Below are positions 7,977 through 26,350 of a DNA stretch of 27,662 bases, in pieces; position 1 is the stretch's first letter, and the number at the start of each line of letters is the position of its first letter. The position numbers and the translations under genes were made by a program. Source of the DNA: a virus; the IMG/VR virus record IMGVR_UViG_3300048117_000392, positions 1 through 27,662 of that record, one strand, 5' to 3'. A model generated the notes under the pieces. That model was given only the letters and a program-made list of their open reading frames with translations. It searched no databases and was not told where the DNA came from.

Positions 7977-9686
7977 TTAACGTATCTTTTTACGAACTAC
8001 ATAAGAACCAAGTATCAACACATCCATCTCACAATTTAAAAATGTTTTAATTGCATCTTCTGGTGTGAGAACCATTGTTTGGTCTTTTAAATTAAATGAA
8101 GTATTAATAACAATTGGAAATCCAATTAGTTTTTCTAGTTCACCGAGTATTTGATAAACATATCTAGCTCTTGTATTTGTTAGAGTCTGAACTCTTGATG
8201 ATTTATCTACATGAGTTATAGATGGTAATTTATTTATAAATCTATCAACTACCTTTACTACTTGATTCATATATGGTATATCAGAATCATATTCAAAATA
8301 AGTAGTTAATGCTTCTCGTTTACATATAGGAGCAAAAGGTCTAAATCCTTCTCTTTTTTTAATTACTTTATTTAATCGAGATTTCATTTGAGGGTCACAT
8401 GGATTTGCAAATATACAACGACTTCCCAATGCTCTAGCTCCAAATTCCATTCTCCCTTGAAACCATCCTATAATATTATTCTCAGATATAAGTTCAGCAG
8501 TGTAAGGTATTAGTATATCACTTGGTTTCCATTCATAGTAAACATCTAAGTGATAATCATTAAGTGCTTTTAACATATCTTGTTTACTATAATCAGGACC
8601 TAAATATGGATTAGTATTATCATGTCTATCAATATCAATACCTTTATAAAAACTTTCGAGAGCTACCCCAATTGAAGAACCAGCATCCGATGGAGCTGGT
8701 GGTATCCAAATATTTTGAAACTTTGTTTTTTCTTTTATCTTACCATTTGCAGTTCCATTATAAGCACATCCACCACTCAAACATAAGTTCGGTGTTTCTG
8801 TTATTCTGTATAATCTGTTTAATAATTTAAAGAAATATTTTTCATATTGAAATTGTACCGATGCAGCTAAATCTTTATAATCTTGTGTTAGTTCTTCTTC
8901 TGGTAATCTATTTGATATACCTAAATGTTCTGATAGTTTTTCATTAAACATATGGTCATCAGACCAATCATATTCAAAATAATCCATATTTAATTCATAT
9001 CCACCATCTTTAGTAGAATAAATTATATCTTCAAATTTTAAATTATATTTTTCAGGATTACCATATGGAGCCAATCCCATAACTTTATACTCACCCTCGT
9101 TTGGTTTGAATCCTAAGAAAGCAGTAAATGAAGAATAAAACATTCCCAATGAATGTGGGAAATCTATACTTTGTAATTCTTTTATTTTATTCTTATCACC
9201 ATAAGATAAAGAAGTTGTTTTCCACTCACCAACACCATCTACTGATAATATAGCTGATGTTTTAAATGGAGAAGTATAGTAGGTATATGATAGGTGAGAA
9301 TCGTGATGATTACCAAAAATAACCTTAGTATTTTTACCTCTATACTTATCTATATTTTGATTTAATAAATTATAAGATTCGGTATTTCTGTTTATTATTT
9401 TTTTTCTATTAAAATATTGCCAAATACCACCTCTTTTTGTAGATTCTGTAATTCTGTCTAATTTTGTTATTGGGTTTTCATAAAAACATATTTCAGATAT
9501 ATCTTCTTTGGAAATACTAAATTTATCAAAAAACCAATTTAAGGTATTATGTGGAAATGAAGAATCGTGTTTTATACCTGTGAATCTTTCTTCCTCACAA
9601 GCAGCGATAACTTTACCATCTTTAACCAAAGAGGCAGCTGAATCGTGATATCCACAACTTATTCCTATAACATATTTTATTTTCAT
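7977..9686 (-). CDS. NodU/CmcH-type carbamoyltransferase
   Basis: A 569-aa protein, usual length for the family. The N-terminal domain opens with VIGISCGYHDSAASLV (H14-D15) and contains GNHHDSHLSYTYYTSPF near residue 125, matching the conserved metal/carbamoyl-adenylate site histidines. LSGGCAYNG lies near residue 304. The C-terminal YrdC-like half has the hallmark GRMEFGARALGSRCIFANP followed by KREGFRPFAPI. Enzymes of this type move a carbamoyl group from carbamoyl phosphate to a hydroxyl, using ATP, on a sugar or antibiotic; some T4-like marine phages carry one. The acceptor here is unknown: a surface glycan, a modified base, or a small molecule are all possible. It follows the sigma factor gene by 2 nt and is last before a terminator. 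Confidence 0.9.
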   Translation of the reverse strand: MKIKYVIGISCGYHDSAASLVKDGKVIAACEEERFTGIKHDSSFPHNTLNWFFDKFSISKEDISEICFYENPITKLDRITESTKRGGIWQYFNRKKIINRNTESYNLLNQNIDKYRGKNTKVIFGNHHDSHLSYTYYTSPFKTSAILSVDGVGEWKTTSLSYGDKNKIKELQSIDFPHSLGMFYSSFTAFLGFKPNEGEYKVMGLAPYGNPEKYNLKFEDIIYSTKDGGYELNMDYFEYDWSDDHMFNEKLSEHLGISNRLPEEELTQDYKDLAASVQFQYEKYFFKLLNRLYRITETPNLCLSGGCAYNGTANGKIKEKTKFQNIWIPPAPSDAGSSIGVALESFYKGIDIDRHDNTNPYLGPDYSKQDMLKALNDYHLDVYYEWKPSDILIPYTAELISENNIIGWFQGRMEFGARALGSRCIFANPCDPQMKSRLNKVIKKREGFRPFAPICKREALTTYFEYDSDIPYMNQVVKVVDRFINKLPSITHVDKSSRVQTLTNTRARYVYQILGELEKLIGFPIVINTSFNLKDQTMVLTPEDAIKTFLNCEMDVLILGSYVVRKKIR

Positions 9687-14214: not shown

Positions 14215-15180
14215 TTATTTCCAATTAAATCCTGCACCCATATGTCCAAACGCTGCTGAATCACCAAAGATTGGTTTTGTGAGTTCTAAGAAATCAATTA
14301 TTCCTTTAGGTGATAAATCATATCCTTTGATAAATTCATGTTCTCCATCAACGATTGCAGTTGCTTGAAGTGGTTGGTCATATCCAATCGCATAAGCAAG
14401 TTGAACCATCACTTCTTGTACCTCTGGTCTTTGTTCTAAAATATCTACAGCAATTCTTCTTCCCATATAAGCTGCACTTCTATCAACCTTAGTAGAATCT
14501 TTTCCACTAAATGCTCCTCCACCAAGTGGAACTCTTGGGCCGTAATTATCAACTGCTAACTTCCTACCAGTTAACCCAGCATCGGCAGTGAACCCACCAA
14601 TGTTCCAATCACCTGCAGGATTACAATGTAATGCTTCAATAAAATATTCAGGATAATCTTCAAAGTATTCCATTACTAATTGTTGTAACTTATCTGATGG
14701 TGCGTTCTGAAATGAACATACAACTCTAAGTGAGTTACCATTCATAGTAACTTGAGTTTTACCATCGTAAGGATATTTACTAAATACGTGCTTATTAAGT
14801 TCTCTTGATAAGAAATATTCTTGTGGTAAAAATTGTTTATTATCTCTACAAGCATAACCAATCATAATTCCTTGGTCACCTGCTCCACCAGTATCAACTC
14901 CATTAGCAATCTCTGGTGATTGTGAGTTGATATTAATGATAACATTAATTGTATCATCAGTAGTTACATCATGAACTACCTTTACAATGTTTTCTCTTGT
15001 TACTACGGCATTTGAAGTAACTTCTCCTGTGATATAAACTTCTCCCATACCACCACAAGTTTCAATTGCTACTCGTGAGTTTGGGTCTTGTTGTAAATGT
15101 AAATCTAATAATGTGTCTGATATTCTATCGCACATTTTGTCTGGGTGCATCGGTGATACACATTCTGCGGTTCTAATCAT
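14215..15180 (-). CDS. metK: S-adenosylmethionine synthetase, compact form
   Basis: A 321-aa protein, well below the ~380-400 aa of cellular enzymes. The signature sites are kept: HPDK (12-15), GAGDQGIMIGYA (99-110), DAGLTGRK (200-207) and GGGAFSGKDSTKVDRSAAY (220-238), the last being the phosphate-binding Gly-rich loop. The enzyme makes SAM from ATP and methionine. The missing length falls mostly between the GDQG motif and the central domain and at the C-terminus. It is last in the long operon that also encodes a SET-domain protein, a possible SAM user. The ATG overlaps the stop of a 37-aa gene by 8 nt. Confidence 0.93.
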   Translation of the reverse strand: MIRTAECVSPMHPDKMCDRISDTLLDLHLQQDPNSRVAIETCGGMGEVYITGEVTSNAVVTRENIVKVVHDVTTDDTINVIININSQSPEIANGVDTGGAGDQGIMIGYACRDNKQFLPQEYFLSRELNKHVFSKYPYDGKTQVTMNGNSLRVVCSFQNAPSDKLQQLVMEYFEDYPEYFIEALHCNPAGDWNIGGFTADAGLTGRKLAVDNYGPRVPLGGGAFSGKDSTKVDRSAAYMGRRIAVDILEQRPEVQEVMVQLAYAIGYDQPLQATAIVDGEHEFIKGYDLSPKGIIDFLELTKPIFGDSAAFGHMGAGFNWK

Positions 15181-23611: not shown

Positions 23612-23983
23612 TTAATAAGAAATCTTTAAAGACTTTGCCTTTTTGTTTACTTTCTTATCAATGAGGAGAGTGAGTAACCCATTATCAAATTTAGCAGTTG
23701 TTTTTGTACCATCGTAATCAGTACCAACTGTTAATACTAAATCAATCTCCTTAACAAAAGAAGAAGTAGCTTCTCCTTTTTTAGATTTGATTGTAATTTC
23801 CTCTTCAGTAACATCTACTGTAATATCTTTTGGATTATGTCCAATAGTGTTAATTGTAACTTGTTGTTTACCATCTTCTAATATTGTTGCTTCAAATTGT
23901 GAATTCAATCTATCAGTTGGTTTTGTTGTATAGATATCCTTAAAAAAGTTATCTACGAAATTTTCATTAATTGTGTAAAACAT
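23612..23983 (-). CDS. hsp20: Small heat-shock protein (Hsp20, alpha-crystallin family)
   Basis: A 123-aa protein. The N-terminal arm (MFYTINENFVDNFFKDIY) is short. The alpha-crystallin domain covers ~27-115: QVTINTIGHNPKDITVDVTE, EEITIKSKKG, and KFDNGLLTLLIDKK (98-111) as the conserved G-x-L strand. The C-terminus LKISY keeps a weak version of the I-x-I oligomer contact. Hsp20 proteins hold unfolding proteins in an ATP-independent way; T4-like marine phages often carry them. A strong terminator follows and a tandem-repeat region precedes it, so it may be controlled apart from its neighbours. The leader AAAAAAAGGAATATT gives a modest ribosome-binding site. Confidence 0.88.
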   Translation of the reverse strand: MFYTINENFVDNFFKDIYTTKPTDRLNSQFEATILEDGKQQVTINTIGHNPKDITVDVTEEEITIKSKKGEATSSFVKEIDLVLTVGTDYDGTKTTAKFDNGLLTLLIDKKVNKKAKSLKISY

Positions 23984-24042
23984 AATATTCCTTTTTTTAA
24001 TTATACATTTACTATCTATTGTACCAAATCCGTACCAATTTA

Positions 24043-24105
24043 TTTTGTCAAGGTATAGTATGACATTTTGTCAGTTTTGTCAAGGTATAACATGACAAAG
24101 TGTCA
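24043..24105 (-). repeat. Two-unit 32-bp tandem repeat with TGACA-N3-TGTCA dyads, upstream of hsp20
   Basis: Two imperfect copies start at 24043 and 24075. Each carries TTTTGTCAAGGTATA, then ATGACA and TGTCA. The perfect inverted repeats TGACA-N3-TGTCA lie at 24061-24073 and 24093-24105, 32 bp apart (about three helical turns, same face). The second ends at the stop codon of the upstream gene. A degenerate third piece (TGTGTCAGG) follows at about 24109-24117, inside coding sequence. An operator for a dimeric regulator of hsp20 is the simplest reading. Between it and the ATG, TTTG-N19-TATAATTA may be the promoter. Confidence 0.7.
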
Positions 24106-24450
24106 TTCTGTGTCAGGTTCAATTTCAAGACCTGTTAATGCTCTATATAATATTTCCAAAGATTCTTCGTTCATACAAAACCCCAATCCATTTGAATTTG
24201 CAAGTTCTACTATAAACTCTCCCTTCTTTATACCAAACTCTTCATATTCGTCATCTGAACTAGATACTAGAGTAACACAATCATCTTCAGGATTATCCTT
24301 TGGAATAGGTAATACATAATATGTGTGATAAAGTGGTTCGCCTGATTCTTCATCATATCCATCTTTTTCACTATACTCTTCCCACTCTTGTCTTTCAAAA
24401 GTTTCTTTGGTTATGGGTACTAATGGAAACTCTATGAAATCTTTTTTCAT
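24103..24450 (-). CDS. Acidic protein, unrecognised
   Basis: A 115-aa protein rich in Asp and Glu (EEYSEKDGYDEESGEPLYHT, SSSDDEYEEFGIKKGEF). The opening FIEFPLVPITKETFERQEW and closing NEESLEILYRALTGLEIEP look folded. Strong negative charge is common in phage DNA-mimic or inhibitor proteins, but nothing specific points there. It overlaps the lipoprotein stop by 4 nt, and its own stop lies in the hsp20 control repeat. Confidence 0.65.
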   Translation of the reverse strand: MKKDFIEFPLVPITKETFERQEWEEYSEKDGYDEESGEPLYHTYYVLPIPKDNPEDDCVTLVSSSDDEYEEFGIKKGEFIVELANSNGLGFCMNEESLEILYRALTGLEIEPDTE

Positions 24451-26273: not shown

Positions 26274-26350
26274 TGGTGAACCAGACAGGATTCGAACCTG
26301 TGACCGTCTGCTTAGAAGGCAGATGCTCTATCCAACTGAGCTACTGGTCC
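26274..26350 (-). tRNA. tRNA-Arg(UCU), CCA encoded
   Basis: A full cloverleaf. Acceptor GGACCAG pairs with CTGGTTC, followed by discriminator A and an encoded CCA (26274-26276). The D arm has AGCTCAGTTGGATAGAGC, the anticodon loop is CTTCTAA (anticodon UCU at 26314-26316), and the T arm has GGTTCGAATCC. It reads AGA, a preferred Arg codon in AT-rich phage genes. Probably co-transcribed with the upstream 102-aa gene. Confidence 0.97.

Follow-up and report, generated by a model that had tools for sequence, protein, structure and literature searches.

How a phage that carries its own small heat-shock gene has that gene switched on is the question raised by a tandem repeat in the IMG/VR virus record IMGVR_UViG_3300048117_000392, analysed here, by computation throughout, as one window of 27,662 bp. 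The gene (hsp20; 23612-23983, minus strand; 123 aa; PF00011, E=1.9e-7) is the predicted target of the repeat, which spans 24043-24105 with a 32-bp period. Its two copies (24043-24073 and 24075-24105) are 31 nt long, start 32 nt apart, and are 84% identical; each contains a perfect TGACA-N3-TGTCA palindrome, the proximal TGACATTTTGTCA (24061-24073) and the distal TGACAAAGTGTCA (24093-24105), and these are the sole exact sites of this form in the whole window. The proximal palindrome lies 78-90 bp and the distal one 110-122 bp from the hsp20 start codon, and the distal one takes in the TGA stop codon (24103-24105) of the gene before it. That gene (24103-24450, minus strand), which encodes 115 aa and gave no match in Pfam or PHROG, is replaced by a different one in several relatives, in which the element stays. 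A sequence-only reading of the window had described two such copies 60-120 bp upstream of hsp20, the second reaching the neighbouring stop codon; both palindromes and the overlap with the stop codon are confirmed, and the distance is right for the repeat as a whole (60-122 bp). The window also encodes T4-like baseplate wedge proteins, whose best matches, at 41%, 39%, and 38%, belong respectively to a Microcystis phage, an uncultured phage, and Flavobacterium phages. Elsewhere it holds a tRNA-Arg-like stretch (about 26281-26350; approximately 90% identical to Shewanella and Synechococcus phage tRNA-Arg genes) and genes for a carbamoyltransferase and an S-adenosylmethionine synthetase (7977-9686 and 14215-15180).

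The repeat does not correspond to the familiar heat-shock operators, as had been remarked for CIRCE and HAIR, neither of which is present in the leader. At up to three mismatches, the CIRCE/HrcA operator (TTAGCACTC-N9-GAGTGCTAA) and the RheA operator of hsp18 (TGTCATC-N5-GATGACA) have no match in the window, and the HAIR/HspR operator (CTTGAGT-N7-ACTCAAG) has one 3-mismatch match, outside the leader and at chance level.

A scan of IMG/VR with the phage hsp20 provided 23 relatives (60-94% identity), giving 24 loci with the window included. When these were checked for loss of the repeat, two exact palindromes were found before hsp20 in 22 of the 24, spaced 32 bp apart in 20, 31 bp in L021, and 22 bp in L022; of the other two loci, L003 departs from the palindrome at one position of the distal copy, and the proximal palindrome is gone from L020. 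The retention of the 32-bp period in 20 loci supports the earlier suggestion that both palindromes occupy one face of the helix. Across those 20 loci the palindromes, whose arms are fixed by definition, are 88-93% identical pairwise, as against 50% for the spacer, 42% for the 20 nt upstream, and 49% for the 11 nt downstream. Dinucleotide shuffles of the 24 leaders (approximately 220 nt each) yield 0.00075 exact palindromes per leader where 1.92 were observed, more than chance would give. The element is absent from immuto, a cultured Flavobacterium phage that is related through its baseplate protein and encodes groESL.

Conservation also bears on the idea that the repeat consists of two housekeeping promoters in which the palindromes are incidental. 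The sequence TTGACA-N17-TACTAT can indeed be read in the window copy; however, TTGACA is absent in L008, L012, L014, and others, where the palindromes persist, and the Bacteroidetes -7 box TAnnTTTG follows the palindromes in only seven of the 24 loci. A housekeeping promoter inside the repeat was rejected as not conserved, and this explanation is the least credible of those considered, with scarcely any probability left to it.

A different promoter-like element accompanies the palindromes throughout. Downstream of the last palindrome, all 24 loci carry TTGGTA-N4-TTTGGTA or a close variant, represented in the window by TTGGTACGGATTTGGTA (GG-N10-GT; 24022-24038, minus strand). The TGG that supplies the GG at -24 is invariant in the 24 phage leaders, as is the N10 spacing to an invariant G at -12 (GG-N10-G), which are the hallmarks of sigma54 promoters. 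The C of the -12 GC is absent from the leaders of this lineage (T in 22, A in two of 24), and the phage element is for this reason termed sigma54-like rather than a proven member of the class, although the base is variable in host composite sites too (A in 14, C in seven, T in seven, G in two). Other phages may possess a canonical -24/-12 element, as in L033, where TTGGCATTTGCATTGC lies at 12 bp. In the window, transcription is predicted from the sigma54 layout to start at 24009-24013 (minus strand), approximately 12 nt beyond the -12 element. An A-rich, ribosome-binding-site-like stretch that is conserved in relatives (AAAAAAAGG; 23990-23998, minus strand) precedes the hsp20 ATG. The palindromes had been read as an isolated operator, a view that does not hold, as they form a composite with this -24/-12 element, of which they make up the upstream portion.

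The geometry of the composite resembles that of an activator-dependent promoter. In the phage loci, 12 or 23 bp separate the last palindrome from TGG (23 bp in the window), and in L020 the separation is 33 bp; these gaps amount to one, two, and three whole helical turns. Upstream activator-binding sites (UAS) of bacterial enhancer-binding proteins (bEBPs), the activators of sigma54 promoters, of the NtrC, NifA, PspF, and NorR type are repeated, helically phased dyads upstream of a -24/-12 promoter, usually about 80-200 bp upstream of the transcription start. The repeated and phased dyads of the phage leaders conform to this description; their distinguishing features are the dyad itself, TGACA-N3-TGTCA, and its unusual proximity to the promoter, the nearer centres being placed at about -45 or -56 (in the window the two centres fall near -56 and -88, the alternative layout giving -45 and -77). 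A sigma54-type promoter for a small heat-shock gene has a counterpart in ibpB of E. coli, an organism whose main heat-shock sigma factor is sigma32; we know of no paired site at ibpB like that of the phage.

Any dimer would be suited by dyad symmetry, and the palindromes may alternatively serve as operators from which a classical, perhaps TetR-like, repressor blocks hsp20 until stress lifts the block. The same palindrome word does precede many TetR-type genes, in Bacillota as well as in other phyla, among the matches listed; indeed, a scan of bacterial contigs gave mostly TetR-type and other non-Bacteroidota genes among those matches, so that the word alone is not diagnostic, and in Clostridia and others it seems to be used by a regulator family with no relation to this one. 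Paired sites, often 36 bp apart, were observed before TetR-type genes of Clostridia and others in L152, L158, L162, L212, L228, and many of L145-L263. Against repression at the phage locus, the palindromes lie upstream of the promoter element and not over it, whole-turn distances to the sigma54-type element are kept in phages and hosts, and a sigma54 promoter needs an ATP-dependent activator for transcription, for which the leader offers no other conserved dyad. A repressor is accordingly regarded as unlikely, and tandem activator sites are the preferred reading.

The host side of this comparison is provided by Bacteroidota chromosomes, which may not be those of this phage's own host. The palindrome was looked for at bacterial heat-shock genes and was found: in Kordia zhangzhouensis (Flavobacteriaceae), a 32-bp palindrome pair precedes the bacterial hsp20 and is followed 12 bp on by TGGAATACTGTTTGC (GG-N10-GC). 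The Kordia genome has four exact palindromes, two of which form the hsp20 pair and one of which is the single site at dnaK, 12 bp before TGGCATAATCATTGA; in genome G025, exact sites occur upstream of groESL, grpE-dnaJ, hsp20, and a clp ATPase gene. Across 395 Bacteroidia genomes, the pattern palindrome-N10-13-TGGNAN6TTG gave 38 matches in 37 genomes, and the reversed pattern none. With the gap left open from 0 to 30 bp there were 49 matches (three for the reversed pattern), distributed as 2, 5, 22, and 9 at gaps of 10, 11, 12, and 13 bp, as 2, 3, and 5 at 21, 22, and 23 bp, and as one at 30 bp, with none elsewhere; the longer gaps were counted by hand, and a binomial figure is indicative only, the genomes being related. 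A control set of 50 mixed non-Bacteroidota genomes, picked for carrying palindromes, contained one composite match, at a gap of 18 bp. Pfam searches of the ORFs downstream of 30 host loci identified 22 chaperones (GrpE 7, HSP90 7, HSP70 6, Cpn10 1, HSP20 1), placing grpE, htpG, dnaK, groES, and hsp20 behind the composite, and the remaining eight comprised thioredoxin (2), LemA (2), rhomboid (1), MutL (1), and others (2). Besides the -12 base of the phage leaders and the closeness of the sites to the promoter, two findings count against the activator-site reading: the sites in host groES leaders are degenerate, and exact palindrome pairs are rare in hosts, occurring in one of 396 genomes. An exact pair was rejected as a host-wide signature on the latter ground, being too strict.

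These chromosomal occurrences also weigh upon the proposal that the palindromes bind a regulator encoded by the phage, which would set the timing of hsp20 during infection. The hsp20 pair represents the only exact sites in 18 of 23 phage records, rendering the palindromes hsp20-specific in those phages, a finding in favour of such a regulator. Yet the same composite stands at host chromosomal chaperone genes, and the 24 phage records, often fragments, yielded no bEBP; the search for a phage-encoded bEBP returned three weak AAA matches only, and the one inspected (G001) is CbbQ-like. Control by a phage regulator is hence very improbable, more so than a repressor. Extra exact palindromes were noted in long intergenic stretches of the related phages G001, G009, G015, and G021 (L264:544-702, L266:1038, L267:1504-1746, and L268:1709-1824), away from chaperone genes and without a -24/-12 element.

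If the activator is supplied by the host, Bacteroidota genomes offer a candidate for it. RpoN (PF04552) is present in 56 of 60 genomes, and Kordia has two strong Sigma54_activat proteins, the first a receiver-AAA protein ending without a visible HTH and the second an AAA protein with a Fis-type HTH (PF00158, PF02954). Ortholog-like matches to the Fis-type bEBP, with E below 1e-90, occur in 56 of the 60 genomes, and the gene order EBP-lptE-(hypothetical)-secG-groES-groEL is seen in Kordia and in 16 of 20 sampled neighbourhoods; in G025 the order is EBP-lptE-hypothetical-secG-clp, with a composite element before clp. The Fis-type bEBP encoded beside groESL is the leading candidate for the activator.

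The proposed mechanism is as follows. The repeat would constitute tandem UAS belonging to the host's sigma54-dependent protein-quality-control (heat-shock) regulon in Bacteroidota, with the distal palindrome as predicted UAS 1 and the proximal one as predicted UAS 2, which the phage would have taken up ahead of its hsp20 gene. A host bEBP, most likely that of the EBP-lptE-secG-groES-groEL cluster, would bind both palindromes on one helix face and activate RNA polymerase-sigma54 at the -24/-12 element, and phage hsp20 would consequently respond during infection to the signal that induces the host chaperones. Because the palindromes match the Bacteroidota chaperone control element in both sequence and helical spacing, the host stress machinery most likely switches on the phage chaperone, and the presence of a sigma54-type element together with the same composite at Bacteroidota chaperone genes leads us to predict activation by a host bEBP rather than repression or a phage-specific circuit. 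That the repeat is a tandem UAS through which a host bEBP drives phage hsp20 is considered probable, with some room left for doubt. Of the original suggestions, a conserved regulatory site stands while the operator function gives way to predicted activation; a dimeric regulator of host or phage becomes, probably, one of the host; and separate control of hsp20 is supported as a prediction.

Both the sigma54 chaperone regulon of Bacteroidota and the use of host regulators by phages are already known. Mapping of transcription start sites in Flavobacterium psychrophilum, an organism with sigmaA, a single sigma54, and seven sigma factors of the ECF type, placed groES-groEL, lon, dnaK, grpE-dnaJ, htpG, clpB, and a rhomboid protease gene under the sigma54 motif SM4, and among its three PF00158 proteins none is assigned as activator of the chaperone sigma54 promoters in the available text (PMC9723704); a PSSM survey likewise puts Bacteroidota chaperones under predicted sigma54 control (PMC12316311). 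As far as the available portions of these two reports extend, their regulon and the composite share the same genes (groESL, dnaK, grpE-dnaJ, htpG, clpB, rhomboid, and small Hsp) and the same -24/-12 type, whereas the activator site, its phasing, the activator, and phages are not given there, and the phage differs in its two perfect sites and in GT for GC at -12 (PMC9723704; PMC12316311). Cyanophage genes are controlled by host PhoB via Pho boxes, and thus likewise comprise phage genes with binding sites for a host stress regulator, which in the present case is predicted; in the cyanophages, however, a response regulator and phosphate stress are involved (PMC10976474), whereas the phages of Bacteroidota would rely on a sigma54 activator linked to protein-quality control. 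Searches of the open-access literature turned up neither the TGACA-N3-TGTCA site and its phasing nor an activator role for the groESL-linked bEBP, nor capture by phages. For chaperone induction in Bacteroidota there are now a predicted binding site, a spacing rule, and a candidate activator, and with these three the question of how Bacteroidota switch on their chaperones becomes directly testable.

The arrangement extends beyond the relatives of this phage. A scan of IMG/VR for the composite, in which some contigs may be bacterial fragments, showed gap peaks at 11-14 and 22-23 bp among the matches listed; at these peaks 57 of 79 ORFs encode chaperones (Hsp20 38, DnaK 15, GroES 2, GroEL 1, Clp 1), compared with none of 25 at other gaps, again among the matches listed. 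In the 276-kb record G001, a site is also located before an operon with groEL (L265). The window may be one instance, seemingly a frequent one among IMG/VR contigs, of phages that tap into the heat-shock circuit of a host by means of nothing but DNA sites. A broader proposition, for which we judge the chances to be evenly balanced, is that TGACA-N3-TGTCA and the groESL-linked bEBP form an undescribed general heat-shock switch of Bacteroidota, under which diverse phages would have put hsp20, dnaK, groES, groEL, and clp (with the site doubled and perfect in the present lineage), such that the proteotoxic stress of infection would itself turn on the phage chaperones.

A further peak in the viral scan, at a gap of 26 bp, was dismissed as a coincidence arising from one conserved phage coding sequence (LFIDELIDSGMD...); it is matched in L433, L441, L486, and about ten others, and could mislead a naive motif scan. 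In other viral contigs, Sigma70-family factors are encoded directly downstream of a palindrome and -24/-12 composite (L463:684-1475 and L499:349-1164; also L501 and L516), and some phages may therefore put a transcription factor of their own under the composite. Paired palindromes were also seen between a Clp ATPase gene and a divergent small gene in L033, L498, L508, and probably L040, L048, L050, L063, and L068. The possibility that the proteins divergent from clp are Hsp20 was rejected, as all three tested carry UVR motifs (McsA-like), and the clp side of those contigs seemingly has a Bacteroidetes -33/-7 promoter instead.
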